Source: Lamprocystis purpurea DSM 4197 (GTDB taxonomy: Bacteria; Pseudomonadota; Gammaproteobacteria; Chromatiales; Chromatiaceae). From it: 37,482 nt of DNA. Made by a program: the position numbers and the translations under genes. Each line of letters starts with the position of its first letter. The stretch's first letter is position 1. The stretch is from NCBI RefSeq assembly GCF_000379525.1, contig NZ_KB902364.1:231-37712 (forward strand), in the 5' to 3' direction. Positions 11,802 to 34,070 of this stretch are shown here, in pieces. The notes beneath the pieces are model-generated. The model made no database searches. It was not told where the DNA came from and saw only the letters and a list, made by a program, of their open reading frames with translations.

Positions 11802-11843
11802 GTCGCGTTCCAGATCAGATGTGTCGTCATTCTCGCCGCGGAC

Positions 11844-12002
11844 GGCCTTGATCATCGTTTCGGCCGGAGTCGGCCTGTCCGCAACTGGAGGCCGAGGCTT
11901 TCGCCGGTAGCGATTCCCGAGATCTCAAAAAAAATCATTGGTGTCTGCGCGCCGGACCGGCTAAAGCCTCGACCTCCAGTGGCCGGAACGATGACCAAGG
12001 CC
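11844..12002. mobile_element. GGCC-ended MITE with perfect 8-bp flanking repeat
   Basis: 159 bp bounded by inverted ends that match at 20 of 22 positions (left GGCCTTGATCATCG..., right the complement of GGCCTTGGTCATCG...). The element is flanked on both sides by CCGCGGAC (11836-11843 and 12003-12010), a perfect direct repeat as left by transposition. Inside are two facing copies of CTGGAGG-CGAGGCTTT-GCCGG that can form a long hairpin. It has no coding capacity and lies just upstream of the DUF433 gene. Confidence 0.85.
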
Positions 12003-12107
12003 CCGCGGACTAAGCAAGCAGCAAAGGCTGACCGGCGGCGATGGCCAATGCCCCGCCGGGTGATGATTGCTTATCGGACAGCAGGGTTCGGTGACGAAGT
12101 AACCGCA

Positions 12108-12335
12108 TCAATCGCACTGATCCTGTGGTGGTCGGTGACCGGTGCCGGCGGCGTGCGTCGCAGCGGAGCGGGCGATCTGGGCCATCAGTGAGCGGTCTTG
12201 CAGGACTTAGCGCGTTTCCTGCTCGCACTCCCAATCCTCGGCGCTGATGACCACGAAGTCGGCGTCGTCGCTGGCCGTGACGTTCGGTGGCTGATGGTCG
12301 GCGATCATTTTTGCTATATGCTCCTAGAGGTTGCC
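12108..12335 (-). pseudogene. Phd/YefM-type antitoxin with two stop codons
   Basis: The frame reads EHIAKMIADHQPPNVTASDD, then ADFVVISAEDWECEQETR, stop, VLQDRSLMAQIARSAATHAAGTG. The D-H-x-P, VVISAEDWE and RSL-x-x-QIA blocks are those of Phd/YefM antitoxins. TAA at 12207-12209 sits where a Tyr codon is expected and TAG at 12324-12326 is another nonsense codon near the N-terminus; the start is missing. No toxin gene follows. Fragments of a very similar gene occur at 18976-19053 and 19425-19450. Confidence 0.75.
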
Positions 12336-12339
12336 CCGA

Positions 12340-12500
12340 AACGCTGTTCCGAGTCAGATGACCGCGCGTTGTTCGCCGCGTCGATGACTCTCGCGGCAAC
12401 CGAGCCGCTTCGCGTCCACGCTGACGTCCTGATGACCAACCATGTTCATCTGCCGGCGACGCCGGAAACCGACCACGGACCGGGGCGGCTGATAAGGTCG
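12340..12500 (+). pseudogene. RAYT (REP-associated tyrosine transposase) N-terminal fragment
   Basis: Encodes RCSESDDRALFAASMTLAAT, then VHADVLMTNHVHLPATPETD and GPGRLI. The MTNHVHL block contains the HUH metal-binding histidines of Y1-type transposases. The fragment stops abruptly at about 12497, where a 35-bp repeat begins. Its last 90 bp are also present at 15183-15275, the start of the other RAYT fragment, so the two pieces overlap and may derive from one split gene or two copies. Confidence 0.75.
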
Positions 12501-12531
12501 GCTTCACCCGTTACCTTGGCACCTCGCCTGC
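12497..12531. repeat. 35-bp repeat shared with 9707-9741
   Basis: GTCGGC-TCACCCGT-ACCTT-GCACCTCGCCTGC, identical at 32 of 35 positions to 9707-9741. It lies at the junction between the RAYT fragment and copy 2 of the duplication. Confidence 0.7.
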
Positions 12532-12540
12532 TTATTTGCA

Positions 12541-12668
12541 GGTGGCCGTCGTGCCGGCGGCGGCCCCCGACGTCACGGTCCCGGCGGTGCCGCTTGCCGC
12601 GGATGGGACGGCCTCGGACCCGCCTTTTCCCAATAGCTGATCGTACGAGCAGGCAGACAGCGCAAGGG
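12541..12668 (-). pseudogene. Lipoprotein remnant, second copy, truncated at both ends
   Basis: Same frame as the remnant at 8559-8877 (lipobox LTLALSAC, SYDQLLGKGGSEAVPSAASG), but it stops at 12541 inside the Ala/Thr-rich stretch, so the Cys-rich C-terminus is gone. The start is missing exactly as in the other copy, so the start was lost before the duplication. Confidence 0.65.
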
Positions 12669-13367
12669 TTAGCGCTGGCCGGATGTCCGGCGCTCCAGCA
12701 GGTCTTTTAGCCGAACAAGTTCCTCGTTGCTGAGTCCGAGTAGCCGGTCTTCGGGGCGCAGACTGCGAACCAACTCCTCCGGCGACAGCCCCCGCAACCG
12801 CTCCTCCGGCGGCAACCCCCGCAACCGCTCCTCCGGCGGCAACCCCCGCAGCCGCTCCTCCGGCGTCATTTCAGCCAACTTTTCGCGTGTCCACTCGCGC
12901 TTAAAATCTTCAAACGTATAGGCCATCGAGATACCCACCTCGCGGTAGCGCTGGTAAATTTGCTCAAGTATCGGAACATGGTCGTCCCGGCGCCAGCGGT
13001 AGGTGTCGGCCCCGGCGAAGACCTTCGCCGCCTCGAAGCTGAGGATCTCCCACAATGCGTTGCGCGGACAGGGCTCCACCTCGCGCAATATGATCAGGGT
13101 CACGGTGCGGCCCACGACCGGCAGGCGGTAGACCCCGGGTTTGACCGCCTCAAGCGCCACTTGCCCAGCCAGGACGCGGGGACGGCGCGTGGTGACCGCA
13201 TAGAGCCCGAACGCACCGACCGGCTCCCGCGGCGCGAACGCCTTGCGGTAGTTGACGTAATGGCCGATCAGCTCCTCGATCGCCCACGCGTCCAGGCTCT
13301 CCTGGCCTGATTTGTAAGTCAGCAGATTGTGGGGCCGCAAATCCTCCAGCCCGTCGCAGGGGTCCAC
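12669..13367 (-). CDS. Rpn-like/uncharacterised protein with RLRGLPPEE repeats
   Basis: A 232-residue protein. Residues 1-140 (DPCDGLEDLRPHNLLTYKSG, then a domain with ALWEILSFEAAKVFAGA and HVPILEQIYQRYREVG) resemble the uncharacterised Rpn-associated proteins common in cyanobacteria and purple bacteria. The MAYTFEDFKREWTREKLAEM linker leads to tandem 9-residue units (RLRGLPPEE and variants, about five) and a helical tail. The start is uncertain: GTG at 13367 is the first start codon in frame, but the frame is open upstream (KWHTESKAEGIV) to a stop near 13440, so the N-terminus may be damaged. A nuclease function is only suggested by the family association. Confidence 0.6.
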   Translation of the reverse strand: MDPCDGLEDLRPHNLLTYKSGQESLDAWAIEELIGHYVNYRKAFAPREPVGAFGLYAVTTRRPRVLAGQVALEAVKPGVYRLPVVGRTVTLIILREVEPCPRNALWEILSFEAAKVFAGADTYRWRRDDHVPILEQIYQRYREVGISMAYTFEDFKREWTREKLAEMTPEERLRGLPPEERLRGLPPEERLRGLSPEELVRSLRPEDRLLGLSNEELVRLKDLLERRTSGQR

Positions 13368-13631
13368 TATACCTTCCGCTTTTGATTCGGTATGCCACTT
13401 GCTGCTTCGTTGTGGCGTGAACGGTGACAGGAGTAACGGTCAGATCATCAGTGATGTCATATGGAATCATCACAAGGTCGCCCCGGTGTTTACCGACCGC
13501 GCCCACCCGGTAGGCTTGCGCGCGGCCCGCCGCAACCCGATCGAATGCCTTTCTTCGCGAAGCCGACTGGCGTCCGCGCCGAACCAACGCTAGACTAAAC
13601 ATATGCGAGCAACATAGGTCAATGAGCGTCC

Positions 13632-13904
13632 ATGATCGACCATTCCGCTGCTTCACCCAACGTCGGCGCCGACCCGCCACGCACCGCCAGGCTTTTTCGC
13701 AACGGGACCAACCAAGCGGTGCGGCTGCCCCGCGACCTCGAGATCGACGCCGACGAGGTGCTGATTCGCCGCGACGGCGACAGTCTCGTCCTCACCCCCA
13801 AGCCACGCTCCTGGGATGACTATTTTGCGCGGGGGCAGCGGCTGACGCAGGATTTTCCCGACGCGATTGACGACCCTCCATCCCAGACCCGGGACGTCCT
13901 CTGA
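13632..13904 (+). CDS. vapB: VapB-type antitoxin (AbrB/SpoVT fold)
   Basis: A 90-residue antitoxin. TARLFRNGTNQAVRLPRDLE followed by IDADEVLIRRDGDSLVLTPK is the swapped-hairpin AbrB DNA-binding domain of the VapB class with the R-x-G-x-x-QAVRLP signature. The C-terminal tail SWDDYFARGQRLTQDFPD is the expected toxin-wrapping peptide. The stop overlaps the vapC start by one base (TGATG), so they are coupled. The ATG at 13632 is used. This is the only intact VapBC pair in the duplicated region. Confidence 0.88.
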   Translation: MIDHSAASPNVGADPPRTARLFRNGTNQAVRLPRDLEIDADEVLIRRDGDSLVLTPKPRSWDDYFARGQRLTQDFPDAIDDPPSQTRDVL

Positions 13905-14302
13905 TGCGCTGGATGCTCGACACCGATACCTGCATCTACGTCATGAAACACCATCCCCCACAGGTGCAGGCGCGGCTGCGGCGGGTGGCTATCGGGGAGC
14001 TTGGGATCTCCGCGATCGTCTTGGCGGAGCTTCAATTCGGCATTCAGAAGAGTCAGCGACGGGAGGACAGCGCCGCTGCCCTGGCTGATTTTCTAGCCTA
14101 TTGTCTGGTGCTGGATTGGCCGCAAGAGGCGTCCGGTGTCTATGCGGAGATCCGCAATGCGTTGGAGTCCAGAGGGACACCCATCGGGTCCAACGACCTG
14201 CTGATTGCCGCCCATGCCCGCCACCTTGGTTGTACACTGGTCACGAACAATGTTGAGGAATTCAGCCGAGTCAGTGGATTAACCATCGAAAATTGGGTCT
14301 GA
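13904..14302 (+). CDS. vapC: VapC-type PIN ribonuclease toxin
   Basis: A 132-residue PIN-domain RNase, the toxin partner of the preceding VapB. Catalytic acids are D6 (MRWMLDTDTCIY), E42 (ISAIVLAELQFG) and D98 (GSNDLLIAAHA), with the NNVEEF block at 115-120 completing the site. LDTDTCIYVMK is typical of the VapC subgroup related to MvpT/VapC of enterobacteria, which cleave initiator tRNA; whether this one does is unknown. The last two thirds are duplicated at 9131-9364. Confidence 0.9.
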   Translation: MRWMLDTDTCIYVMKHHPPQVQARLRRVAIGELGISAIVLAELQFGIQKSQRREDSAAALADFLAYCLVLDWPQEASGVYAEIRNALESRGTPIGSNDLLIAAHARHLGCTLVTNNVEEFSRVSGLTIENWV

Positions 14303-14451
14303 ATACCGGCTGACTGCGGATGAAGTGGGGATACCTCAGGATCTGTCCTCGGTTTCTTTGCGGCCTGTGTCGCGACAAGTTATGATCGGGGCGCGGTCAA
14401 GGCAGCCTATCGCGCTCAACTGCTTACAGCGAATCTTACCAAGGGACGAGC

Positions 14452-14760
14452 GTGCAGACATTCACCTTCGATTGCGAAGTAGACAAACACCGTGGTGTTG
14501 TGTTGGGCCTGCCGCCCAGCGTCTCTCCTGGCCGGCACCGTCTGGCTGTCACCATAGACCCACCCGAGATTGCCCTGGCGTCAACCCAAAGCGCGCCGAT
14601 TGCCCCGATTGACGAGAGCACGGCACCGCGCACCGACTTGTGGCGCCAACTGGAGGCGTTGCGCGCGCAGGCGGCCCAAACCGGGGATCTCCCCGACCCT
14701 ATGGCCTGGGACGCGGTGCCGGCGGAGGCCGAGCGACGCCGTGGCGAGCGCGATGACTAA
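14452..14760 (+). CDS. Putative antitoxin upstream of a PIN toxin
   Basis: A 102-residue protein with GTG start preceded by AAGGGA. The N-terminus MQTFTFDCEVDKHRGVVLGL and PSVSPGRHRLAVTIDPP is a small beta-rich domain like that in uncharacterised PIN-associated antitoxins. A Pro/Ala linker and a helical charged tail (LWRQLEALRAQAAQ) follow and would fit toxin wrapping. The stop overlaps the toxin start (ATGACTAA). The antitoxin role is inferred from the arrangement. Confidence 0.7.
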   Translation: MQTFTFDCEVDKHRGVVLGLPPSVSPGRHRLAVTIDPPEIALASTQSAPIAPIDESTAPRTDLWRQLEALRAQAAQTGDLPDPMAWDAVPAEAERRRGERDD

Positions 14761-15175
14761 GCGACGCACCTATCTGGAGGCCAATATCCTGATTGCGGCC
14801 TGGAACGGCGATGCCGAGTCCCGCGGCTGGGCGCGTGCCATATTGGATGGCCCAGAGCGCCAGCTCCTCACCAGCGATTTCGTCCGCTTGGAGGTTCTAC
14901 CCAAACCGGGCCATGACCGTCGGACCGTCGAAATCGCTTTCATGCAGGTGATCTTATCGGTCGCCGAGGATATCCCGGTGACCGGTGCACTGGTCCAGGA
15001 CGCGCTCGTGCTGGCCGGACGCCACGATCTCTCCGCCCTTGATGCATTGCATCTTGCGGCAGCCGCCGTCGGGGCGGCGGACGAAGTCGTGACCTTCGAA
15101 GGGCCCGAAAAGCCTATGTGCCGACAGACCGAGGTGACTGTCGTGTCACTACGCGCCGTTCGCGACCAACGGTAA
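14753..15175 (+). CDS. PIN-domain toxin with Glu in place of the first catalytic Asp
   Basis: A 140-residue PIN-domain protein: RRTYLEANILIAAWNGD (first acidic strand), SDFVRLEVLPK with the central Glu, DLSALDALHLAAAAVGA with the third acid and a C-terminal strand (VVTFEGPEKPM). The first position, normally Asp in the YLDxNxLI pattern, is Glu here. Some PIN subfamilies tolerate this, so activity is uncertain. The ATG at 14753 overlaps the end of the upstream putative antitoxin. Immediately downstream lies a RAYT fragment. Confidence 0.8.
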   Translation: MTKRRTYLEANILIAAWNGDAESRGWARAILDGPERQLLTSDFVRLEVLPKPGHDRRTVEIAFMQVILSVAEDIPVTGALVQDALVLAGRHDLSALDALHLAAAAVGAADEVVTFEGPEKPMCRQTEVTVVSLRAVRDQR

Positions 15176-15182
15176 ACGTGCA

Positions 15183-15819
15183 GAGTCGGTTCGCGTTCAC
15201 GCTGACCTGATGACCAACCATGTTCATCTGCCGGCGACTCCGGAAACCAACCGCGGACCGGGTCGGCTGATGAAGGGTCTCGGGCAGCGTTACGTTCAGT
15301 ACATCAACCGTACCGACCACCGAACAGGGAGGCGTTTCGAGGGCCGCTTCCGCTTCTCGGTTATCGAAGCCGACAGCGACCTCATTGCTTGCCGGCGCGA
15401 CATCGAAGTCAACCCGGTTCGGGCGCGCAGGGTGCCCACCGCAGAAGAATACCCCTGGTCGAGCGACCACTGCAATGCGCTCGGACTCACCGACCCCGTT
15501 GTCGCTGCGCACCCGCTTTATCTGGCGCTGGGCGAACGCGACGCTGAGCGGCGCTCGCGCTACCGCAGTCTGTTCGCCGACGCGATCCCTGAGAGCGAGA
15601 TTGCGGCGCTACGCGACGCGACCAACGGGGGGATTTGCCTTGGGCAGTGATCGCTTCCAGCGGCAGATCGCCGCGATGATTGGGCGGCGTACATGGCCCG
15701 GCAAATCGGGGCGACCGAAAAAAGAGCCCCCCGGACGCGAATCAGATCGAACTGCCGATCAAGTCTCGAAACCGTGGTCTGTCCCTAGTATCCCCCGTCT
15801 GTCCCTAGTATCCCCCTAG
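15183..15819 (+). pseudogene. RAYT transposase, 5'-truncated and frameshifted
   Basis: Y1/HUH transposase of the REP-associated family. MTNHVHLPATPETN holds the HUH motif, followed by GRRFEGRFRFSVIEADSDLI, EVNPVRARRVPTAEEYPWSS and HPLYLALGERDAERRSRYRS, all family blocks. The N-terminal about 60 residues are missing. A run of six G at 15627-15632 carries one base too many. Before it the frame ends quickly (ICLGQ, stop); in the next frame the protein continues as GGFALGSDRFQRQIAAMIGR and GRPKKEPPG. It is therefore inactive. RAYTs normally move REP hairpins. Confidence 0.85.
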
Positions 15820-15843
15820 TATCCCCGTCCCTAGTATCCCCCC
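15779..15843. repeat. Short tandem-like repeats GTCCCTAGTATCCCC
   Basis: The unit occurs at 15781, 15801 and 15827, with a partial CCTAGTATCCCC near 15816. It sits at the end of the RAYT remnant, where such transposases are often followed by their REP-like substrates. Confidence 0.7.
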
Positions 15844-15951
15844 AGTAGCTCAGCAAGTTCTGCCCGCACGTCCAATAGATCAAAGACTGTTGAGCTTATA
15901 AAGACTCGCATGCTCGTGTGTTCTCCAGCCTAACGTGTTAAACGGACCATC

Positions 15952-16072
15952 TGCGTGCTAGCCTGCCACGGGCCACTAGGGTGCTCAACTGAATTCCGCG
16001 AACCGACCAAGCAGCTCAGATCCCCGCCAGCGCCCTGACAGCCGCTCCACATGGACCCTGCGAAGCGTTCCC
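15952..16072 (+). repeat. Direct repeat A flanking the HsdR-N-like gene
   Basis: About 121 bp starting TGCGTGCTAGCCTGC and ending GCGAAGCGTTCCCC, about 90% identical in the same orientation to 17492-17613. The nonamer TAACGTGTT lies 21 bp before it here (15931) and 29 bp before the other copy (17463). A classic attC fold was not found. Confidence 0.8.
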
Positions 16073-16081
16073 CAGAGAACA

Positions 16082-16131
16082 GGGGCCAGGCTCAATTGCT
16101 TTCGTCTCTTAGCGCAATTGAACCTGGCCCC
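16082..16131. repeat. Hairpin GGGGCCAGG / CCTGGCCCC
   Basis: An 18-bp stem (16082-16099 with 16114-16131, one G-T pair) around a 14-base loop. It is followed by GGCCCCTTATTCT repeated twice. The sequence resembles REP-like 'gggccaggttcaattg' motifs; no T-run makes it a convincing terminator. Confidence 0.65.
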
Positions 16132-16290
16132 TTATTCTTGGCCCCTTATTCTCCCGGAAAAATCTGGCGGACTGTCGCTGATTCTCCAGAAACTTGGATC
16201 TGGGATTTCGCACAAGTCGCTGATATCGCCAGGCGATTCTCAACTGAGCGCCATTCTGGTCCGTCCTCGGTTTCCTGCCCGGTTGCCCTG

Positions 16291-17463
16291 CTATTCTCCA
16301 GTTGGCTGTATACGCACCTGAACATGTTGAGGTTCGATTTTTGCTAAGACAATGAGTTCTTTGATGCACGCGATAAATTGATGTCGATTGTGCCGGATAT
16401 TGAGGTGTCGCCCGCTTGGTAGTGGTCGCGTGGCTCCTGAGTCTGTAGATTCTGAATGGTCCGTAATGAGGGCCGCATTACGTGGATTCGGCCTTAGGAT
16501 TCCTGGGGGAAGGAGTTGCGCTTTGTCAAGGCACTGTGCAATTTTGATGAACATTTGAGTGAAAGGCGTATCCTTTGATCGTTCTAGAGAGATCTCTTCC
16601 AATCCGGGGAGAATCACAGCTACTGGATTATGCTCCTTTCGCAGATCATTTAACCGAATTAGAATCGCTTGGCCTTGGATTGTTTGCGTGCTAGCCGGAG
16701 AACTGGAGCAGTCATTATGCGAACTGCCCTGTACACCCCGCGGCAGTAACTCTAACGCCGCCGCTCCGGTAGCACCACTAAGCACCTCGATTTCGCGGAT
16801 TCGCGCATCGATTCTTTGCCGCTCGGCTCGAAGTTCGGACAATTCTGTTGCACGAGATTCTGCTTGTTCTCGCTTTTCTTTAAGTTTCTCGAGGTATGTT
16901 GGTATTGCTGCTAACGCATTACCATTTTCATTGTTCTCTCGCGCCAAAACCCCCCAAAGGCGCTCGCGAAGTTCCTTAGTCAACAGTTGCCGTCGATGGA
17001 ACTCCTCGATTATCTCGCAGCTTTGCAATGTTCCCGCGCGGAAAGCCTCTGTCACGCCATAAACGCGAAACACCTCTCCGTCGGTAAGGATGGCCATGGT
17101 CGCCTTCCGATCATGGGAGTGTTTAACGAACACGTAATACTCTAGTTGGCTCAAGTAGCTGTCAAGGCGCTTTCCCGGAGCCTTGGTCTCGACAATGATT
17201 CCAATAGGGAAATGATCCAGCACGACGTCAACATATCCGCGACCGGTGCGTCCTTCAAAGTTGAAATCCGCGTCTTCATACCCGAGTGCCCGAAGAAGCG
17301 GTAGAACTACTTTGTTCTTAACATCCTCCTCGCTGACGAGTTGGCTACGTGACAGGTTGACAACTTGGCTAAGGTCAGGAAGCATTCTGCTCATGTACTC
17401 AATGTGACAAACGGCGAATAACACTGTCCGCGCCAGAGCGGCCTGCGGGTTTTGGCCGCGCAT
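16291..17463 (-). CDS. HsdR-N-like PD-(D/E)XK protein with coiled coil
   Basis: A protein of 390 residues at most. Near residues 40-125, SEEDVKNKVVLPLLRALGYE, then GYVDVVLDHFPIGIIVETKAPG is the N-terminal nuclease fold of type I restriction HsdR and related proteins: Asp in YVDVV and the ExK pair in VETKAPG. The segment YLSQLEYYVFVKHSHDRKATMAILTDG follows as expected. A charged coiled coil (about 185-230, KLKEKREQAESRATEL) leads to an unrecognised C-terminal region. There is no helicase domain and no HsdM/HsdS neighbour, so this is a stand-alone protein. The start is uncertain; ATG at 17394 (MSRMLPDLSQ) is as likely. Base composition is clearly AT-richer than its surroundings and it lies between 120-bp direct repeats, both signs of transfer. 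A defence role is possible but unproven. Confidence 0.75.
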   Translation of the reverse strand: MRGQNPQAALARTVLFAVCHIEYMSRMLPDLSQVVNLSRSQLVSEEDVKNKVVLPLLRALGYEDADFNFEGRTGRGYVDVVLDHFPIGIIVETKAPGKRLDSYLSQLEYYVFVKHSHDRKATMAILTDGEVFRVYGVTEAFRAGTLQSCEIIEEFHRRQLLTKELRERLWGVLARENNENGNALAAIPTYLEKLKEKREQAESRATELSELRAERQRIDARIREIEVLSGATGAAALELLPRGVQGSSHNDCSSSPASTQTIQGQAILIRLNDLRKEHNPVAVILPGLEEISLERSKDTPFTQMFIKIAQCLDKAQLLPPGILRPNPRNAALITDHSESTDSGATRPLPSGRHLNIRHNRHQFIACIKELIVLAKIEPQHVQVRIQPTGE

Positions 17464-17491
17464 AACGTGTTCTAGGTCGAAACAGGCTCGT

Positions 17492-17613
17492 TGCGTGCTA
17501 GCCTGCTACGGGCCACTTAGGGTGCGAGACTGAATTCCGCTTACCGACCAAGCACCTCAGATCCCCGCCACCGCCTTGTCAGCCGCTCCACATGGACCCA
17601 GCGAAGCGTTCCC
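17492..17613 (+). repeat. Direct repeat B flanking the HsdR-N-like gene
   Basis: Partner of 15952-16072. It begins just upstream of the gene's 5' end. The two repeats bracket about 1.42 kb that contains only this gene and a hairpin. Confidence 0.8.
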
Positions 17614-17638
17614 CCGCGGCACGGCGGCGCGGGTTTTT
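17613..17638 (+). terminator. Possible rho-independent terminator
   Basis: CCCGCG (17613-17618) pairs with CGCGGG (17628-17633) across a 9-base loop and is followed by five T. It is short, and the plus-strand gene it would serve is not evident. Confidence 0.4.
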
Positions 17639-17736
17639 CCTGAGATGCCCGAATCGGTTGGCGGCTAAACCCCGTCAGTCTGTGCTTATGTTCGTCCACA
17701 CATGAAAGTTTTACAAGGGAATCAGTGTGACTTGGA

Positions 17737-18024
17737 TCACGGTTTTGTACAAAAAGTGGATACGGACTGTCGATGTCTCCCGGGCACAGTCCATCCGGAT
17801 GTGTTTCCGGACTGAACTCGACCATGGTCACCGTAATGGCCGCCGATTGCGAAGATAAAGAGCCCGTCCGCGTCGAATCGATAGACCACGCGGTCTTTCT
17901 GCGACAGCTGCCGCGACCACAATCCGCTGAGGACGTGTTTGCTGCCCCGAAATCGGTCAAGGGACTCGACCGGCGGCGATCGTGCGCTCGATCCTGCTGT
18001 CCGGATACTCGGGTTGCGCGCCAA
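17737..18024 (-). pseudogene. YoeB/Txe-like toxin remnant
   Basis: The central part reads SLDRFRGSKHVLSGLWSRQL, then SQKDRVVYRFDADGLFIFAI and GGHYGDH. These are the C-terminal half of YoeB/Txe RNases, including the G-L-W-S-R and R-x-V-Y-R strands and the terminal His-Tyr. The N-terminal half is not recognisable in any frame, and the C-terminus runs on for about 25 unrelated residues instead of ending at HY. No antitoxin precedes it, although YefM fragments are found at 12108 and 18976. Confidence 0.6.
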
Positions 18025-18249
18025 CGGCGGCCTGCCGGTGTCGGGGTGTTAGCCAGGCTGACCTGACCGTCGATCCAGTGCGGCACCGCGCCACCTGCGC
18101 ACGACGGGCCAGCCACCTCAGTTGTCATCGCGCCCCGATCATGGTTGCATGGTTGCGCTTAAACTGACCTTGCGGCCCGCGCCGCGCGCTCCTTCGACCG
18201 GCACCTGGCGCACCCCGCGCCAACGCCTGCCACCGTGCGAGGTACACCG

Positions 18250-18807: not shown

Positions 18808-18975
18808 GTAACGCGTGAGGGCCGATGGGGTCGGAAGTGAGGGGATTGGCGGGTCGCCCTGCGGGCACCGCTCTACCGGTCTTCGTAGTCGTAGTCGAAA
18901 TCGGATTTCATGGCGCGACCCCGACCCCCGATTGCGACGCCGAGGGCTGTAGGGTGCGGTGACGAAGGAACCGTA

Positions 18976-19053
18976 TCAATCACACTGATCTTTTGATGGT
19001 CGGTGATTGGTGCCGGCGGCATGCGTAGCAGCGGAGCGGACGATCTGGGCCAT
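18976..19053 (-). pseudogene. Phd/YefM-like antitoxin, C-terminal fragment (split gene)
   Basis: Reads MAQIVRSAATHAAGTNHRPS then KDQCD and stop, matching the C-terminus at 12108-12200. The preceding residues (DRSLM) lie 370 bp away at about 19434-19450, separated by two inserted elements (19055-19205 and 19219-19424). The rest of the gene is absent. Confidence 0.7.
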
Positions 19054-19054
19054 C

Positions 19055-19205
19055 GGCGTTGGTCGTCGTTCCGGCCAGACCCTGGGGCGGAAAGCTGATC
19101 CACAGATGTCACAGATGTTCACAGAGATTCTCTTCATCTGTGAACATCTGTGACATCTGTGGACAAATCCGAATGGTCGCTTTGGCCGGAACGATGATCA
19201 AGGCC
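19055..19205. mobile_element. GGCC-ended MITE carrying a 26-bp perfect hairpin
   Basis: 151 bp with ends GGCGTTGGTCGTCG... (left) and the complement of GGCCTTGATCATCG... (right). Flanks are GGGCCATC and AGGCCATC, an 8-bp direct repeat with one mismatch. The target is the split YefM-like gene. The interior is dominated by the hairpin at 19099-19163. Confidence 0.75.
19099..19163. repeat. 26-bp perfect inverted repeat (CACAGATGTTCACAG hairpin)
   Basis: Arms 19099-19124 and 19138-19163 are exact reverse complements (26 of 26) with a 13-base loop. A decayed relative is at 27271-27335. Confidence 0.9.
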
Positions 19206-19218
19206 AGGCCATCAGTGA

Positions 19219-19424
19219 CAGCAATTCCAAATTTGGGAGGCACCGCGCGGCCCCTGGTGGATGCGGCGCGCGCGACCGACGCGCCGGGTTCCTGACACCG
19301 AGCGGCGCGCCTTATCCACCCTACAGCGGCGCCGGTTTTGTAGGGTGGATAAGCGCAGCGCATCCACCGTCAGCCTCGCCGCCAGCTCGCTGCCGGCGGC
19401 GGCCACCCAAATTTGGAACTGCTG
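19219..19424. mobile_element. CAGCAATTCC-type MITE with perfect 9-bp flanking repeat
   Basis: 206 bp with ends CAGCAATTCCAAATTTGGG and its near-complement CCCAAATTTGGAACTGCTG (18 of 19). Flanks CATCAGTGA (19210-19218 and 19425-19433) are identical. The interior holds GTAGGGTGGATAAGCGCAGC facing a related inverse, a well-known type of intergenic motif. No open frame of note. It is inserted in the YefM-like pseudogene next to the preceding GGCC-ended element. Confidence 0.88.
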
Positions 19425-19452
19425 CATCAGTGAGCGGTCTTTGCGTTCTCTC

Positions 19453-21742: not shown

Positions 21743-21772
21743 GGCACGAGCCCCCGGCAATGACGAAAAACA

Positions 21773-21896
21773 GGCCTTGATCGCAATCCCGGCCAGCGGC
21801 GTGCGTAGTCAGGGCTTCCAGCCCTGACGGTGTCAGGCCAGGATGGCCTGACGACGCACCCGGCGAGCCCAAGTGGCCGGAATCTTGATCGAGGCC
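21773..21896. mobile_element. GGCC-ended MITE between oppC-like and oppB-like genes
   Basis: 124 bp, the same length as the inverted copy at 33679-33802. Ends GGCCTTGATCGCAATCCC... and the complement of GGCCTCGATCAAGATTCC... match at 17 of 22. Flanks GAAAAACA and GAAAGACA match at 7 of 8. The interior holds two hairpins, GTCAGGGCTTCCAGCCCTGA and GTCAGGCCAGGATGGCCTGA. Confidence 0.82.
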
Positions 21897-21929
21897 GAAA
21901 GACACCCGACCGCAATCCGCTTTCTCGAT

Positions 21930-26012: not shown

Positions 26013-26030
26013 ACGACCGCTATATCCCCC

Positions 26031-26124: not shown

Positions 26125-26174
26125 AGCGTCGCTGCGCGACTTTCGCGGTATGCCTCGACCTCCGTTTTTCTTGT

Positions 26175-26196
26175 GGCCGGAACGACGATCTAAGCC
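26175..26196. repeat. Solo GGCC-type element end
   Basis: A 22-bp match to the right end of the GGCC-ended elements (GGCCGGAACGACGATC then TAAGCC). No opposite end is visible between it and the hairpin at 26124, so it is a remnant. Confidence 0.5.
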
Positions 26197-26236
26197 AACC
26201 ATTGTATTCGCTTATTAATTGATTCTTTACTCGTTC

Positions 26237-26989
26237 ATGAGTGAGCCAACCCACGCCGAGTACATCGCCGCCCTGATTGACCTTCATCGCGGGCTGCCGC
26301 GTCAAGGACCAGGGGACCCGGAACTCACACGACAGTTGTTGTGCCGGCTGCCGACCTTGCCGGCGCACCCGCGGATTGCCGACCTCGGTTGCGGATCCGG
26401 CGCCGCGACACTGCTACTCGCGAAGCACTACGGCAGCCTGGTCAGAGCAGTCGACGCGGCACCCGACTTCATCGAGGAACTGAGGGATAAGGCCGCCGCG
26501 GCGGGCCTTGACCATCTGGTCGAAGCCGTCTGTACCGATATGGCGACGCTGGACTGGCCACGCGCCTCGATCGATCTCCTCTGGTCCGAGGGTGCAGCGT
26601 ATAACCTGGGCTTCGAGCAGGCATTGAGGGCCTGGCACCCCATCGTATCCACGGGCGGCGTCGCCGTTGTATCGGAGATGAGTTGGTTCAGCGACACCGT
26701 GCCGGACCCGGCGCGTCGGTTCTGGGAATCGGCGTATCCGACCATGGGCACGGAGCAGCAGAACATCGGTCGCGCCGAAACCGCCGGCTTCAGTGTCGTT
26801 TTCACCGAAAGGCTGCCGAGCAATGCCTGGTGGGAACACTACTATGGTCCACTACGTGAGCGCATGCGCCGACCGGATGTGGCCGGCATGAATCAAGCCG
26901 TCATTCGGGAAACCGAGCAGGAGATGGCGCTGTTTGAACGCTACAGCGACTGTTATGGCTATACGTTTTATATTCTGCAAAGGCCTTGA
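26237..26989 (+). CDS. Class I SAM-dependent methyltransferase
   Basis: A 250-residue methyltransferase. The SAM-binding motif I is RIADLGCGSGAATLLLAKHY, with VRAVDAAPDFIEEL as motif II and DMATLDWPRASIDLLWSEGA as the following acidic site. The C-terminal half (VSTGGVAVVSEMSWFSDTVP, ending YGYTFYILQRP) resembles uncharacterised YjhP-like enzymes; the substrate is unknown. The ATG at 26237 (MSEPTHAEYI) is preferred over an in-frame TTG at 26219. The last codons and stop (26982-26989) lie inside the end of a repeat element, so the native C-terminus may have been altered by its insertion. Confidence 0.85.
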   Translation: MSEPTHAEYIAALIDLHRGLPRQGPGDPELTRQLLCRLPTLPAHPRIADLGCGSGAATLLLAKHYGSLVRAVDAAPDFIEELRDKAAAAGLDHLVEAVCTDMATLDWPRASIDLLWSEGAAYNLGFEQALRAWHPIVSTGGVAVVSEMSWFSDTVPDPARRFWESAYPTMGTEQQNIGRAETAGFSVVFTERLPSNAWWEHYYGPLRERMRRPDVAGMNQAVIRETEQEMALFERYSDCYGYTFYILQRP

Positions 26990-27210
26990 TCATAAACCCG
27001 GCCACCGCGCGATCTGCCCGGTCGCCGGTCCGCACAGCGGACCCTACAGGTCACGGTGTTACCATAGAGTCCGCTGTGCGGACCGTCCGCAACTGGAGGT
27101 CGAGGCTTTAGCCGGTGGCAATTCCCGAGATCTCAAAGAAAATCAGTGATGCTTGCGCGCCGGACCGGCTAAAGCCTCGACCTCCAGTCGCCGGAACGAC
27201 GATCAAGGCC
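26982..27210. repeat. Composite GGCC-ended element (two interiors)
   Basis: Begins GGCCTTGATCATAAACCC at 26982 and ends with the complement GAACGACGATCAAGGCC at 27210. The first half repeats the GTCCGC/GCGGAC hairpin seen at 9351-9433. The second half repeats the interior of the MITE at 11844-12002, with a perfect 25-bp inverted repeat (27092-27116 and 27164-27188). No flanking direct repeat is visible. It could be two elements joined. Confidence 0.7.
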
Positions 27211-27270
27211 CACGGCCGCCTTGATCATCGCGCGAGCCGGTTTCCGCCGACGCCCTAGTTCAAAAATCCG

Positions 27271-27335
27271 TTCCACCGATGTTCACAGATGTTTTTCTTC
27301 ATCTGTGAATATCTGTGTCATCTGTGGACAAATCC
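27271..27335. repeat. Decayed CACAGATGTTCACAG hairpin
   Basis: Related to 19099-19170 (ends CATCTGTGGACAAATCCG in both), but the left arm is shorter and mismatched. No terminal repeats are seen. Bases 27211-27377 hold no gene. Confidence 0.6.
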
Positions 27336-27377
27336 GGATGAAGGCCCCACCGCCGACCTTCCCGACAACCGCCGGCA

Positions 27378-29099: not shown

Positions 29100-29106
29100 G
29101 GCTCGG

Positions 29107-30123
29107 CTACTTTAACTTGTGCTTGTAGGCGTCGATGAGCTTGGGAATCACTTCCATCACATCGCCGACGATTCCATAATGGCAGACACCGAAGATCGGC
29201 GCGTCGGGGTCGGCGTTGATGGCGATGATCTTGTTGGATTCACTCATCCCGGCCCGGTGCTGAATCGCCCCGGAGATGCCGCAGGCGATATACAGCTTGG
29301 GCCGCACCGTGACCCCGGTCTGCCCCACCTGCCGGACGTGGTCGATATAACCGGCGTCCACCGCGGCACGCGTGCCCGCGACCTCGCCGCCGATCACCCG
29401 CGCCAGTTCGTGGAGAATCTGGAAATTCTGCCAGTTACCCATCCCGTAGCCACCGGCGACGATGATCGGAGCAGCCTTGAGATTGACCTTGCTCTCCTCA
29501 TGGTGCCGGGCAATGATCCGCACCAGTTGGTCGGCGGCGTCAGGCTCATAGTAGACGGGCGTAATGCGTCCGGCGACCGGCTGCGACAGCGGGATTTTCT
29601 CCATCACCCCCTCGCGCACCGTGGCCATTTGCACCGGCGAATCCGGACAGATGATGGTGGCGATGATGTTGCCGCCGAAGGCCGGGCGAATCTGCAGCAG
29701 GAGCTGGGAGTAATCCTTGCGCAAATAGGTGACGTCCGAGATTTGCAGATCAGTGCAGTCCGCGGTCAATCCGCTGCGGGTGTGGGAGGCGACGCGCGGC
29801 GCCAGATCCCGGCCGATGAAGGTGCCGCCAAACAAGACGATCCGCGGCTGATACCGGTCCACCAGCTCGCTCATGATGCGGCTGTAGGGCAAGGTGTTGT
29901 AGTGGTTCAGATCCGGGTGATCCGCCAGCAGGACGTCCGTGACGCCGTAGTGAAAAGTCTCTTCGGCGACGGCCTGCATATTGTGGCCGATGAGCACCGC
30001 CTGCAATTCCCCATTCAGGCTTTCCGCCAGCTTTCTGCCCTTGGAGAGCAACTCAAAGCTCACATCGGCCGGTTTGCCGTCGCGCTGCTCAATGAACACC
30101 CAGACCAGTTTATTCTCATTCAT
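29107..30123 (-). CDS. etfA: Electron transfer flavoprotein alpha subunit
   Basis: FAD-binding subunit of the heterodimeric ETF, 338 residues. The N-terminal Rossmann-like domain (LVWVFIEQRDGKPADVSFEL, then VLLADHPDLNHYNTLPYSRI) is followed by the C-terminal FAD domain with the signature VGQTG at 266-270, ISGAIQH at 283-289 and NADPDAPIF at 303-311. An N-terminal FLFGGTFIGRDLAPR-like block (IVLFGGTFIGRDLAPRVASH) is standard. It lies 6 bp after etfB and 7 bp before the dehydrogenase gene. Together they carry electrons between an acyl-CoA oxidation or reduction step and another acceptor. Confidence 0.95.
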   Translation of the reverse strand: MNENKLVWVFIEQRDGKPADVSFELLSKGRKLAESLNGELQAVLIGHNMQAVAEETFHYGVTDVLLADHPDLNHYNTLPYSRIMSELVDRYQPRIVLFGGTFIGRDLAPRVASHTRSGLTADCTDLQISDVTYLRKDYSQLLLQIRPAFGGNIIATIICPDSPVQMATVREGVMEKIPLSQPVAGRITPVYYEPDAADQLVRIIARHHEESKVNLKAAPIIVAGGYGMGNWQNFQILHELARVIGGEVAGTRAAVDAGYIDHVRQVGQTGVTVRPKLYIACGISGAIQHRAGMSESNKIIAINADPDAPIFGVCHYGIVGDVMEVIPKLIDAYKHKLK

Positions 30124-30129
30124 AGGGGC

Positions 30130-31020
30130 TTATCCGAAGATGTGGTCTTCCATCAGTTTATCGATCAGCGCATACATGCCGTCCTTGGTGGGCGGTATGG
30201 TTTCATGCGCGCTCCCGCCCAACACCACCGACTCGATCTTGTGCACCTTGGTCGGCGACCCGCCAAGGCCGCACCGGTTCAGGTCGACATCCAGATCGTC
30301 GGCGGTCAGCGTGGGGATAAACAGCCCCTTGGACACATACTCCTCCTTGAGCTGATCCATATACAGCAACGAATTGCCCTCGGTCATCTTTTCCAATTCG
30401 AGCAGGGTATGGGCATTCTTGTAAGCCATGACCCGTTTGGCCCGGAAGGGCCGGGGCGTGGCCGCATCCTTCACCACTGTGAGCAATAGCGGGAGGGTGC
30501 CTTCCAACACCTCGAAACCGTTATCCACCTTGCGCTTGACGGTGATCGTCGACCCTTCCGCATTGAGAATCGCTTCCGCATAGGTGATCTGCGGCAGGCT
30601 CAGCTTTTCAGCGGTCTGCGGACCGACTTGCGCGGTGTCGCCATCGATCGCCTGCCGGCCGGCGAAGATGATATCGTAGTTGCCCAGTTTGCGGAGCGCC
30701 TCCGCCAATACATAGGAGGTCGCCAGGGTGTCGGCGCCGGCGAATTTCCGGTCGCTGATGAGAAACGCCTCATCGGCACCCATATATAAGCATTCGCGCA
30801 GCAGATCCGAGGCTTTCAAAGGCCCCATGGTCATCACGCGCACGGTGCCGCCGAAGCGGTCGCGGAATTGCAGTGCCAATTCCAGCGCCACCTTGTCTTC
30901 AGGATTGAAAATGGTGGGAAGTTTACTGCGATTGACAGTGCCGTCCGGCTTCATCACCTGCCCGGAGATATTGGCCGTATCAGGAACCTGTTTGACCATT
31001 ACGATGGAATGGTAGCTCAT
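30130..31020 (-). CDS. etfB: Electron transfer flavoprotein beta subunit, bifurcating-type motif
   Basis: Beta subunit of the ETF, 296 residues; first gene of the operon. The N-terminus HSIVMVKQVPDTANISGQVM and RSKLPTIFNPEDKVALELAL is typical. At 121-134 it has GRQAIDGDTAQVGP, the pattern reported for electron-bifurcating ETFs (which bind a second FAD), whereas classical bacterial ETFs have a divergent stretch (AIDDD-NQT-like) and bind AMP. ECLYMGADEAFLISDRKFAG is also close to the anaerobic type. No ferredoxin or FixCX gene is next to it. Upstream lies a MITE, so the promoter would be within about 160 bp of the start. Confidence 0.93.
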   Translation of the reverse strand: MSYHSIVMVKQVPDTANISGQVMKPDGTVNRSKLPTIFNPEDKVALELALQFRDRFGGTVRVMTMGPLKASDLLRECLYMGADEAFLISDRKFAGADTLATSYVLAEALRKLGNYDIIFAGRQAIDGDTAQVGPQTAEKLSLPQITYAEAILNAEGSTITVKRKVDNGFEVLEGTLPLLLTVVKDAATPRPFRAKRVMAYKNAHTLLELEKMTEGNSLLYMDQLKEEYVSKGLFIPTLTADDLDVDLNRCGLGGSPTKVHKIESVVLGGSAHETIPPTKDGMYALIDKLMEDHIFG

Positions 31021-31180
31021 GCTCTGCCTTGTAAGTTCTTCTGGGATAATCGGGGAATGCGGCGACCGGCAGACCAGACGATCAGCATACGGGGGGCCGT
31101 GGCGGCCACATCACCCGGAAAAAGGGACCACGAAATTTTACCATTTTTCGTAAGCCCATGCGATGGAGGCGGCGGGACCG

Positions 31181-31399
31181 AAGCAGTTCCAAGTTTGGGT
31201 AGCCGCCGCGGGCGGAGTGGCGGCGGCGAGGTGGATGGTGGATGGTGGATGGTGGATGCGCTGCGCTTATCCACCCTACAAAAACCGGCTCCGCTGTAGG
31301 GTGGATAAGGCGCGCTGTTCGGTGTCAGGGACCCGGCACGTCGGTCGCGCGCCGCATCCACCAGGGGTCGCGCGATGCCGCCCAAGTCTGGAATAGCTG
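31181..31399. mobile_element. CAGCAATTCC-type MITE, second full copy
   Basis: 219 bp, inverted relative to 19219-19424. Ends AAGCAGTTCCAAGTTTGGG and CCCAAGTCTGGAATAGCTG match the family loosely. The flanks (GCGGGACCG / GCCGGGACC) share CGGGACC but not in register, so a target repeat is only possible. It includes four 7-bp units GGTGGAT at 31230-31257. It lies about 160 bp upstream of etfB. Apart from it, 31021-31417 holds nothing recognisable. Confidence 0.75.
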
Positions 31400-31417
31400 G
31401 CCGGGACCCATCCGGAA

Positions 31418-32389
31418 TCACCCTCCCGCGGCCTGCCGCTCGCGCCGCTTGAGCCAGACCTCCAGACCTTGCGCATTGAGTTCGGTGTCGACCGCGAGCA
31501 AGGCGTCGATCCGCACGTCCTCTAAATCCACTCCGTGGGCGCGGGCACTGGCCGTCAGGTGCGCCGATACCGCCCGCTTGAGCCGGGTGAGGCGTTCGGG
31601 GTCATCGCGCCCCTCCTCCGCCAGGGCGATCCCCGCCATGTCATGAATGCTCCGGCGCACGTCGTCCACCAGTCGCTCCGGCGCATCGACCCGCCCGTAG
31701 TGCGTCAGGTACATGGCTTTCGGATTCAGGTTCATGAGCTTATCGAGGCTTTGCAGCCACGCCTCCGGATCGAAGGCGACCGGGGTGGTGGGGGCGAACA
31801 GCCAGGGGGCGCCCCCCGTATCGAACTCGCGGTAGGCAATACCGAAGGTATCGCCGGTAAAACAGCCGCGCGTCCGGGCGTCGTGGATGCAGCCGTGATG
31901 ATTGGCGTGACCCGGCGTGTCGATGAAGGTCAGGATGCGGCCGGCCAGATCGACCTGCATCCCATCCTCGGCAACGATCACCCGCTCCTCGGGCACCGGG
32001 GTCAGGCCCCCGAAATCACGGGCGAAGGCCTCGGCACCATAGACCGCGCCGGCCCCCGCCAGCAACCGGGCCGGATCGATCATGTGCCGTGCGCCCTTGG
32101 GATGGATCACCAGTCGCGCCGCGGGACAGGCGGCGATCAGGTCGCCCGAGCCGCCCGCATGATCCAGGTGGACATGGGTCGGCATCACATAGTCGACGTG
32201 CGCCGGGGTCAGGCCCATGTCCGCAATGATCTTGAGCAGGGACGGCACCGTGTGCGCGGTGCCGGTGTCGACGAAAGCGAGCCGGTCGCCCGAGCGAACC
32301 AGATAGCACGCGGCCAGGCCGTGACGGTAGAGACCGGTTTCGATGCAGTAAATCTGGTCTGCGACCTCTTGAATGTGTGGAATCGACAT
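31418..32389 (-). CDS. MBL-fold metallo-hydrolase
   Basis: A 323-residue metallo-beta-lactamase-fold protein. The metal motif THVHLDHAGG has His72, His74, Asp76 and His77. Further ligands are in DTPGHANHHGC (His), FTGDTFGIA (Asp) and LTHYG (His), so a two-metal site is complete. The N-terminus (QEVADQIYCIETGLYRHGLA) and the C-terminal helical part (about 220-323) are as in uncharacterised glyoxalase II-like hydrolases of proteobacteria. The ATG at 32389 has GGAG nine bases upstream. It is divergent from the DUF2189 gene with 198 bp between. The substrate is unknown. Confidence 0.88.
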   Translation of the reverse strand: MSIPHIQEVADQIYCIETGLYRHGLAACYLVRSGDRLAFVDTGTAHTVPSLLKIIADMGLTPAHVDYVMPTHVHLDHAGGSGDLIAACPAARLVIHPKGARHMIDPARLLAGAGAVYGAEAFARDFGGLTPVPEERVIVAEDGMQVDLAGRILTFIDTPGHANHHGCIHDARTRGCFTGDTFGIAYREFDTGGAPWLFAPTTPVAFDPEAWLQSLDKLMNLNPKAMYLTHYGRVDAPERLVDDVRRSIHDMAGIALAEEGRDDPERLTRLKRAVSAHLTASARAHGVDLEDVRIDALLAVDTELNAQGLEVWLKRRERQAAGG

Positions 32390-32587
32390 GGCGGGGCTCC
32401 GATGGTGGTTGTATTGAGATCAGGATTGGTTTTAGATTGCATAGACCCGAGAGTCTAACCGCGCCGCTGGCCCGACGGTAAGTGGTCCGTCATTCCCGGA
32501 TTGCCGGGAACCGGACACAGCGCGCTCACCTCAACGGTTCCGATCGCCCAAGATCTTCACAAAAAAGACACTCGGAGGACACCTTAA

Positions 32588-33373
32588 ATGACCCAAGCAG
32601 CGACCGCCGGCGCAATGCCGACAGACACCCCCCGCATCAACGAAATCAGCCTGGAACGTCCCTGGGAGTGGGTCGTCAAGGGCTGGGCCGATCTCCGGGA
32701 GGCACCCCGGTTCAGCCTTGCCTACGGTGCCGTGTTCGTGATCGTCAGCGTACTGATGACCCTGGGCCTGCTGGCCGAGAACCTGTTCTTCATCGTCCCC
32801 GCGCTGGCCGCCGCCTTCTTCCTCATCGCCCCCTTGCTGGGGATCGGCCTCTACCAGATCAGTGCAAATCTCGAGGCCGACCGCCCGGTCGAGTTCTGCC
32901 AGGCACTGCAAGCCTGGCGACAGAACGAAGTGCAACTCGCGGCCATGGCCCTGATCCTGGTGTTCGTGCTGCTGGTGTGGATGCTCGCCGCCATCCTGAT
33001 CTTTGCGCTCTTCTACGACAACCCGGTACCGAACTGGGCCAATTTCCTGCCCACCCTCTTCCTGTCCGGGGAGAACAACACCTTCGTGGCGGCCGGCGTC
33101 ATCGGCGGCGGACTGATCGCCGCCTTCACCTTCTGCATCAGCGTCGTGACCGTGCCCATGCTGATGGACCGTCCGGTCGACGTCGTGACCGCCATGCGCA
33201 CCAGCATGGCGGCCGTCCGCAAGAACTGGCAGGCCTTGAGCCTGTGGGCCGCGCTGATCGTCATGTTCGTGGGGCTCGGCATCCTGACCTACTATATCGG
33301 TCTGTTGATCACCATGCCGCTGATTGGGCACGCCACCTGGCACGCCTATCGGGATCTGGTACCGCGCGACTGA
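32588..33373 (+). CDS. DUF2189 family integral membrane protein
   Basis: A 261-residue membrane protein. The N-terminal soluble stretch PRINEISLERPWEWVVKGWAD precedes about five to six helices (FSLAYGAVFVIVSVLMTLGL, the FFIVPALAAAFFLIAPLLGI pair, LAAMALILVFVLLVWMLAAI, AAGVIGGGLIAAFTFCISVV, and LWAALIVMFVGLGILTYYIG). The terminal HATWHAYRDLV motif is characteristic of DUF2189, which is often near cytochrome oxidase genes; none is seen here. It has a strong GGAGG site 8-10 bases before the ATG. Function unknown. Confidence 0.88.
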   Translation: MTQAATAGAMPTDTPRINEISLERPWEWVVKGWADLREAPRFSLAYGAVFVIVSVLMTLGLLAENLFFIVPALAAAFFLIAPLLGIGLYQISANLEADRPVEFCQALQAWRQNEVQLAAMALILVFVLLVWMLAAILIFALFYDNPVPNWANFLPTLFLSGENNTFVAAGVIGGGLIAAFTFCISVVTVPMLMDRPVDVVTAMRTSMAAVRKNWQALSLWAALIVMFVGLGILTYYIGLLITMPLIGHATWHAYRDLVPRD

Positions 33374-33678
33374 GGCCGCGGACGGCAAAGAATGCCAGGA
33401 AGCGGATCTGCGCCCGCTCGCCGGCGACGGCGAGCGGGGCATGAAGCGAAATGCATATAGCATTCGGACGTGATAACCGGACGTAGGGGCGGGTTTCAAA
33501 CCCGCCCCTACACCAAGGGTCTGTCTGGATATCAGGTACGAAGGCTGTAGCAGCTTGGACCCGCTGGCGAGAGGGCCTTGATCGTCGTTCCGGCCGCACG
33601 ATCACTGGAGGCCGAGGCTTTAGCCGGTCGACGCCGCGCCTGCACAGAAGTGGGAGCAAGGTCGGCGCCAGCCGAGCG
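33374..33678. other. Intergenic region with a palindrome and a solo element end
   Basis: No gene found. A 29-bp palindrome GTAGGGGCGGGTTT-C-AAACCCGCCCCTAC is at 33483-33511, a common dispersed motif that may also act as a terminator after the DUF2189 gene. A GGCC-type end (GGCCTTGATCGTCG..., 33574-33595) is followed by a partial CTGGAGGCCGAGGCTTTAGC. Confidence 0.7.
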
Positions 33679-33802
33679 GGCCTCGATCAAGATTCCGGCC
33701 ACTTGGGCTCGCCGGGTACGTAGTCAGGCCATCCTGGCCTGACACCGTCAGGGCTGGAAGCCCTGACTACGCAGGCCGCTGGCCGGGATTACGAGCAAGG
33801 CC
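33679..33802. mobile_element. GGCC-ended MITE with perfect 8-bp flanking repeat
   Basis: 124 bp, the inverted twin of 21773-21896. Left GGCCTCGATCAAGATTCC..., right the complement of GGCCTTGCTCGTAATCCC... . It is flanked exactly by GCCGAGCG on both sides (33671-33678 and 33803-33810). It carries the same two hairpins as the copy in the ABC operon. Bases 33803-34070 contain no gene I can identify. Confidence 0.88.
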
Positions 33803-34070
33803 GCCGAGCGGTGCGGCCAGGACGCTGCTCAAAGTGGCGCAGCGGCATCCAGCTGCGTTGCGGGAATTGACGGAGGCGTGAGGATTGCCGCAGCGTCATC
33901 CGACGCATTATAGCCAGATACGGTGTATGCCAGTCGCTATCGCGCGCGGTCTTTACCATTCTATGGTGTCGTGCGCTTCGCAAGTTCGATCCAGGTGGCC
34001 GCACTGTGGGGTCCACTGTGCTGACCGATCATCGCCAGCCGGCATGATGATCAAGAGCACTCCAGGCCGA

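Follow-up and report, generated by a model that had tools for sequence, protein, structure and literature searches.

QMITE2 of Coxiella burnetii is a miniature inverted-repeat transposable element (MITE) of 150–190 bp with direct repeats of 7–11 nt and a GTAG repetitive extragenic palindrome (REP) inside it (PMC5896051; PMC10969869), and in Anabaena variabilis and H. neapolitanus REP dimers regularly lie inside palindromic shells of inverted repeats (PMC3733652). REPINs are inverted REP pairs that form a long hairpin in genomes with genes for REP-associated tyrosine transposases (RAYTs), by which they are proposed to be moved (PMC3116915). MITEPsy1 and MITEPsy2 are short elements that resemble a resident insertion sequence at their ends and are thought to be moved in trans (PMC3189936). 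The present analysis concerns a stretch of 37,482 nucleotides from Lamprocystis purpurea DSM 4197 (contig NZ_KB902364.1, positions 231–37,712; hereafter the window), here placed in the genus of Thiodictyon (Chromatiaceae), which carries a family of short elements with common GGCC-ended inverted ends, 8-bp target repeats and differing interiors. These are very probably non-autonomous mini-transposons (MITEs) that an insertion sequence encoding a DUF6399 protein would move in trans, with the interiors as exchangeable cargo.

Four elements of the window carry the ends together with flanking 8-mers:

11844–12002, plus strand: mini-element with type E interior, 159 bp, 22-bp ends at 11844–11865 and 11981–12002
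11836–11843 (left) and 12003–12010 (right): its target repeat, CCGCGGAC in both copies, identical
11887–11977: its inverted E-type REP pair, arms 11887–11907 (plus) and 11957–11977 (minus)
19055–19205, plus strand: mini-element with type D interior, 151 bp
19047–19054 (left, GGGCCATC) and 19206–19213 (right, AGGCCATC): its target repeat, 7/8
19100–19162: its type D inverted hairpin arms, without a clear REP tag
21773–21896, plus strand: mini-element with type A interior, 124 bp
21765–21772 (left, GAAAAACA) and 21897–21904 (right, GAAAGACA): its target repeat, 7/8
33679–33802, minus strand: mini-element with type A interior in reversed orientation, 124 bp, 96% complementary to 21773–21896
33671–33678 (left) and 33803–33810 (right): its target repeat, GCCGAGCG in both copies, identical

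Reading the window sequence bears out the first-pass annotation, which had placed four elements and their flanking 8-mers at these coordinates. Its further claim, that the same ends enclose several interiors, is real and can be put more specifically, as the interiors are hairpin pairs, mostly REP-like, of types E, D, A and A in coordinate order.

With the end pattern GGCCTTGATCRTCGTTCCGGCC at three mismatches or fewer, the window yields 8 matches against 0 expected (100 shuffles), and the 6.90-Mb genome of the strain (G000, the own genome) yields 414, with 0 for the reversed-pattern control. In an own-genome sample of 1,223,392 non-redundant bases (1.22 Mb), 210 ends are found at up to five mismatches, and 60 neighbouring pairs stand in inverted order within 2.5 kb. 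The flanks of these pairs are 62.5% identical at exactly 8 bp, compared with 26–32% at all other lengths from 2 to 13, so the duplication length is 8 bp. Repeats match at 8/8 in 16 pairs and at 7/8 in 9, that is, at 7/8 or better in 25 of 60; random re-pairing of the flanks gives a mean of 0.55 such pairs and a maximum of 4 (2000 shuffles). A search of the 22-bp ends and their flanking 8-mers, as proposed in the first-pass annotation, does return repeats in this sample. Among neighbouring ends spaced 60–330 bp, 59 cases point towards each other and 8 have another orientation. Among pairs called with a weight matrix within 6 kb, 26 of 138 carry repeats of at least 7/8, all 26 measuring 96–159 bp. 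No longer element (>159 bp) with repeats occurs among the long-range pairs in the 1.22 Mb, a sample that includes only one end of contig C45, where the strain's own full-length copy lies (see below). Relaxing the ends to 10 bp in 1.73 Mb gives 11 pairs, one of them a tandem duplication of a mini-element and the rest unconvincing. In common with MITEs, the elements are short, have terminal inverted repeats, lack a transposase gene, show a constant duplication length and have ends in common with an autonomous element. The 8-bp repeats in the genome sample, together with a full-length element bearing the same ends, support transposition with an 8-bp target duplication.

The parent is an insertion sequence of about 1.9 kb (1.92 kb) that encodes a DUF6399 protein, with ends as in the mini-elements and 8/8 repeats. 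A search with an element of G009, a member of another genus of the family, gives a weak match (E 2e-3) to plasmid pTs417 of Candidatus Thiodictyon syntrophicum, at a gene for a DUF6399 protein; this gene fills an element of 1916 bp that has matching ends and is bordered by GGTTGGAC on either side. The full-length insertion sequence with the same ends that the first-pass annotation suggested looking for exists both in the own genome (G000:C45; 1918 bp, GCGCATTG on both sides, open frame) and in T. syntrophicum Cad16T (taken to be G007 because gene coordinates on the plasmid are identical), where 11 full-length copies are listed at 100% protein identity. In nine of these 11, the copy's own ends are flanked by 8/8 repeats; the match is 6/8 for L237 and, with its own right end, 3/8 for L199. 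The ends of a second DUF6399 lineage (67% identity) contain CCGCCC. Of the three Cad16T copies of this lineage, two show 8/8 repeats once the right end is shifted outwards by one base, and the third has none.

The ends number 157–484 in all eight genomes of the genus searched (own included), with 434 in Cad16T, 86 in G009, 0–9 in the other 14 family members and 0 or 1 in 15 non-family genomes, with 0–2 per genome for the reversed-pattern control; relatives of the 11844 element are present on Cad16T plasmids. A protein search of 38 genomes, again with the own genome, finds DUF6399 relatives in ten, namely 7 of 8 genus members, G009, G011 and G022. By lineage, the ends vary as CCGGCC, CCGCCC and TTGGTCC. 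A DUF6399 scan of a genome collection (84,980 species) yields 55 loci; 36 of their titles name Chromatiaceae or genera that we take to be Chromatiaceae, and among the others are Desulfobacteraceae, Chloroflexi and Planctomycetes as well as further bins. At 25 scan loci, a blind search for inverted ends recovers ends with 7/8 or 8/8 repeats in L262, L264, L268, L272 and L275, one of which sits in a Chloroflexi bin, a weak label since bins can be contaminated. A sixth candidate, L278, was rejected as an artefact of a palindromic end. The 12-bp core GGCCTTGATCAT was examined at 22 DUF6399 loci (19 of the 55 and three from the genus): it matches at 10/12 or better at both ends in 17, repeats of 7/8 or 8/8 are present in 7, and L261, L266 and L280 each lack one end. 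The usual sequence is ...CCAA at the left end and ...CCAC at the right, with L270, L273, L275 and L289 as exceptions. At the loci of the DUF6399 proteins of two cyanobacterial plasmids (~30% identity), no such ends are found.

As a separate observation, G002 (L118–L124) holds many identical ends GGCCTTGATCATAATTCCGCCC, yet none of its 32 DUF6399 matches is full-length, which may reflect a burst followed by decay, or a fragmented assembly.

DUF6399 is a family of unknown function in Pfam. A Pfam scan of the parent protein (P0001) assigns only its C-terminal part, to DUF6399, with weak helix-turn-helix matches upstream of that part, and an NCBIfam scan gives nothing above cut-off. In an alignment of 37 rows (residue numbering of L275), acidic residues are conserved in the ungapped rows at D119 (25/25), D173 (29/29), D193 (28/28) and E444 (30/32). 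A first structure model, based on 19 rows, is poor in the core; the second, based on the 37 rows, has a mean predicted local distance difference test score (pLDDT) of 79.8 and a predicted template modelling score (pTM) of 0.64. By our reading, the modelled order of strand-strand-strand-helix-strand-helix, with the conserved E after a long helical stretch, is similar to that of an RNase-H-like core that carries an insertion. The DUF6399 protein is most likely a DDE (aspartate-aspartate-glutamate) transposase, which would catalyse the movement of these elements.

The own-genome sample contains 26 repeat-verified elements, comprising 11 of type A (124 bp), 7 of type B (133 bp), 3 of type C (135 bp), 1 of type D (151 bp), 3 of type E (159 bp) and one 96-bp element without a hairpin interior. 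Hairpin pairs are present in 25 of the 26, in 24 as tagged REP-like types; the motif search matched both arms for A, C, D and E and only one for B, whose second arm was seen by eye. Type F is found with 7/8 repeats in L113 and L114. Type A is nearly confined to elements: of its 44 copies, 32 belong to paired elements, and 11 of the remaining 12 are no more than 150 bp away from an end. Tags read from the sequence are GTAG in A, B and C, GGAG in E and F, and GTGG in G, with none clear in D. Types A, B, C, E, F and G thereby look like tagged palindromes in inverted pairs, in the manner of REPs and REPINs. Moreover, a RAYT gene (L323) is surrounded by nine E-type copies within ~1 kb, against 2 in the densest 1-kb stretch of the sample, and another RAYT gene (L320) by twelve G-type copies, against 4 in the densest such stretch. 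Near a third RAYT gene, in Cad16T, C and F copies lie ~1.1–1.2 kb away, and all three genes score above the NCBIfam cut-off for REP-associated tyrosine transposase. At least two hairpin types, E and G, thus appear to belong to a REP/RAYT system. Against a general link of this kind, 14 of 20 Y1-transposase loci examined are without any of these motifs; RAYT linkage is absent for types A and D, and B occurs once, at the far edge of a locus.

Two further loci, L101 1501–1787 and G000:C111:132654–132967, show nested cargo by eye, with another repeat inside an E-type pair inside GGCC ends; in one of the two the nested cargo includes a G-type pair. In the window, 15210–15650 (plus strand) is a fragment of a REP-associated tyrosine transposase, below cut-off, part of which is repeated at 94% at 12428–12493.

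Exchange of ends is seen once in clean form, in Cad16T. At L235, the insertion sequence lies inside a 178-bp mini-element whose outer flanks match at 7/8, and the insert is bordered by GCCGACCG on both sides. At L199, a 1916-bp sequence identical to the L235 insert is followed by the identical last 42 bp of the L235 host mini-element, and this composite is flanked by CTCGCCAC on both sides, a repeat of 8/8 with the switched right end, 42 bp further on. The simplest reading of L199 is a single jump for which the inserted sequence would have supplied the left end and the host mini-element the right end. Additionally, the left end is doubled in L112 (8/8) and L098 (7/8), where the outer of the two adjoins the repeat, and at L019 an E-type-shell left end joined to a G-type pair, without a right end, is suggestive of exchange.

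The window itself contains one recombinant:

26982–27210: chimeric element, 229 bp, C-type left end and REP pair joined to an E-type REP pair and right end; flanks TCTGCAAA and CACGGCCG, no target repeat

Its C-type left half meets the E-type right half at a common GTCCGC, and the lack of a target repeat is what a recombinant would be expected to show. At this site, G006 is without either interior and G004 has the C part without the right end. The two ends bounding the chimera, at 26982 (plus) and 27210 (minus), had been overlooked in the first-pass annotation, whose four single ends are the following:

9412–9433, minus strand: single right end of a C-type relic
26175–26196, minus strand: single end of an E-type-like relic, adjoining a G-type pair (26031 plus, 26104 minus)
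33574–33595, plus strand: single left end with an E-type motif after it and no right part
37387–37408, plus strand: left end, with a possible partner outside the window at G000:C3:37894, flanks only 5/8

Under the preferred reading, the DUF6399 product would recognise ends of 22–24 bp (GGCCTTGATCAT...CCGGCCA) and duplicate 8 bp of target, and any two such ends lying close together in inverted order would act as a transposon, with the DNA in between as cargo. In Thiodictyon this cargo is mostly an inverted pair of REP-like hairpins, which would have entered by insertion or capture. New interiors would arise if an element inserted into or next to another and the two then contributed one end each to a subsequent jump, and interiors would also change through recombination between neighbours.

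Several observations weigh against this account. In the own-genome sample, 35 of the 60 end pairs have repeats of 6/8 or less and many ends are single; likewise, 15 of the 22 DUF6399 loci lack a 7/8 repeat in register, four of them for missing ends or flank. Ends and gene are also not always found together: G005 has 263 ends and no DUF6399 match in the protein search, G011 has 16 DUF6399 matches to 1 end, and G022 has 4 to 9. The latter two have few ends of this pattern, though loci of G011 and of one further genome carry the TTGGTCC variant, most of which escapes the pattern. In the better structure model, the stretches 117–121, 171–190 and 441–445, which hold D119, D173 and E444, have pLDDT below 50, and Foldseek returns nothing at E 0.001 with either model, so the catalytic fold is not confirmed. 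The L235/L199 pair is the sole clean case of end exchange. Finally, the empty orthologous site foreseen in the first-pass annotation is present in part. G004, colinear with much of the window (94–96% in the main blocks), is without the element at 21773–21896, and the ungapped join leaves one 8-bp stretch, right in length but matching the predicted pre-insertion repeat at only 4/8 letters. At the same site, a longer stretch of ~190 bp is missing from G001, G003, G005 and G007; the 19055 and 33679 elements lie in rearranged stretches, and the 11844 element is outside the 20-kb query.

The alternative that survives best, although unlikely, is that the types are independent MITE lineages, derived by internal deletion from related insertion sequences, whose hairpins arose by mutation without any exchange of cargo. 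Each type does look like one multiplied lineage, since the shell between end and hairpin is conserved within it. However, different types have common ends but not common hairpins; copies of motifs B, C, E, F and G are found outside the elements too, with E and G in the arrays around RAYT genes; and exchange is evident in L199/L235 and in the 26982–27210 chimera.

That the hairpin is itself required for mobility, for example as an extruded cruciform bringing together the ends of a very short element, is improbable. It would account for the strong self-complementarity of the interiors in 25 of 26 repeat-verified own-genome elements (z-score below −3 against simple shuffles). In G009 and G002, however, 19 repeat-verified elements of similar length (124–136 bp, 7/8 or 8/8 repeats) fall outside all of the REP types, and a z-score below −3 is reached by just 2 of them; two of the 19 are one duplicated stretch, and the REP motifs were defined from the own genome, which biases the type count but not the folding score. 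A hairpin pair is thus not needed for mobility. The presence of RAYTs was also considered as a clean predictor of REP interiors and fails: RAYT matches number 22 in G000, three in G002, none over cut-off, and three in G009, all over cut-off, and G009 shows no REP type in 16 repeat-verified elements.

A different transposase, for instance of ISL3, IS1595, IS66 or IS256 type, might move the mini-elements, with the DUF6399 elements as passengers bearing the same ends; G005, with its ends but no DUF6399 match, and the lack of a fold match would fit, but we consider this very improbable. DUF6399 is the gene that fills the full-length element, and the ends recur with it in distant genomes, with 7/8 or 8/8 repeats in 5 of 19 scan loci. 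The ISL3 and IS1595 families make 8-bp duplications and are like the mini-elements in duplication length. These two families had been guessed as parents in the first-pass annotation, but their 40 matches in nine genomes, all examined, include none with such ends and a repeat around the transposase gene, and DUF6399 proteins match neither above cut-off. Specifically, the ISL3 domain PF01610 has no match in P0001 and one match at E 0.0038 among 19 relatives, and hhalign of the DUF6399 profile against two ISL3 proteins gives a probability of 0.2%. An IS1595 transposase (PF12762) flanked by these ends was not found in the nine genomes, and the parent protein has no PF12762 match above cut-off. The further guesses, IS66 and IS256, fare no better in Pfam and NCBIfam scans of the parent protein, which matches neither above cut-off; the genomes were not searched for either family.

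The least tenable proposal, that REP pairs are the movers and RAYTs spread the whole unit with the GGCC ends as passengers, draws on the abundance of RAYT genes in G000 and the REP arrays flanking two of them, but is highly improbable given the 8-bp repeats and inverted ends of the 19 G009 and G002 elements without REP types, the same ends and repeats on the full-length DUF6399 element, and the fact that HUH transposition is not known to produce target duplications.

A second mini-element family, unrelated to the GGCC-ended one, is also present in the window:

19219–19424: mini-element of the second family, 206 bp, located 13 bp from the D-type element, with ends CAGCAATTCCAAATTTGGG and flanked on either side by the 9-bp repeat CATCAGTGA
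31181–31399: further copy of the second family
8519, 30001, 20260 and 28281: single end-like matches (six mismatches or fewer)

Across 16 sampled pairs of this family, flank identity is 80.6% at 9 bp, with 9 pairs at 9/9 and 10 at 8/9 or better, and the shuffled control has a mean of 0.62 and a maximum of 5. A B or B2 motif lies inside all 16, which means that a REP-like pair within a MITE is not limited to one family. Ends of the second family number 208 in the own genome, 213 in G006 and 0–28 in nine other genomes searched; one plasmid search and an end search found no parent.

Other features of the window are the following:

9586–9834, minus strand: group II intron domains (RF02005, 96 bits), the sole Rfam match
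13904–14302, plus strand: open reading frame with a PIN domain, above the NCBIfam VapC cut-off
14570–15175, plus strand: open reading frame with a PIN domain
10139–10579, minus strand: open reading frame with a PIN domain
8722–9350, 12527–12968 and 14048–14264: long direct repeats of 217–300 bp, 87–97% identity, near the PIN/VapC reading frames

In the library of papers searched, none mentions DUF6399, and the sources covered contain, in the portions available and without comparison to ISfinder, no account of a MITE shell that is shared by several REP types. We take these to be insertion-sequence-derived MITEs with REP-like cargo and exchangeable interiors, together with what is probably an unnamed insertion-sequence family. 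We lean narrowly towards a broader proposal in two parts: that DUF6399 marks an unnamed insertion-sequence family (8-bp duplication, GGCCTTGATCAT ends) across Chromatiaceae and sporadically elsewhere, and that REP pairs have repeatedly been taken as cargo by unrelated MITEs (the 8-bp and the 9-bp family, in one genome), giving hybrids that two transposition systems could move. The work proposes a function for a protein family of unknown function, suggests what is likely to move the hundreds of repeat ends that each genome of the genus contains, and shows that transposon ends and interiors are exchanged as modules in nature. REP pairs in MITEs would spread REPs without their own transposase, which bears on the persistence of REP populations, and Cad16T, with its 11 full-length copies, is a ready test system.

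Compared with the described systems, QMITE2 is the closest in being a MITE that contains a REP, but it is presented in the cited sections as one element with one kind of interior, whereas here several REP-like interiors occur in one set of ends, the parent is known and ends are exchanged. REPINs, as described in the source cited, differ in that the pairs analysed here are enclosed by terminal inverted repeats, in a unit that also shows 8-bp duplications. MITEPsy1 and MITEPsy2 are not described, in the corresponding sections, as a family with multiple interiors such as the present one. The shells of Anabaena and H. neapolitanus are tied to no transposase or target duplication in the account cited (PMC3733652), whereas both are found for the shells reported here.

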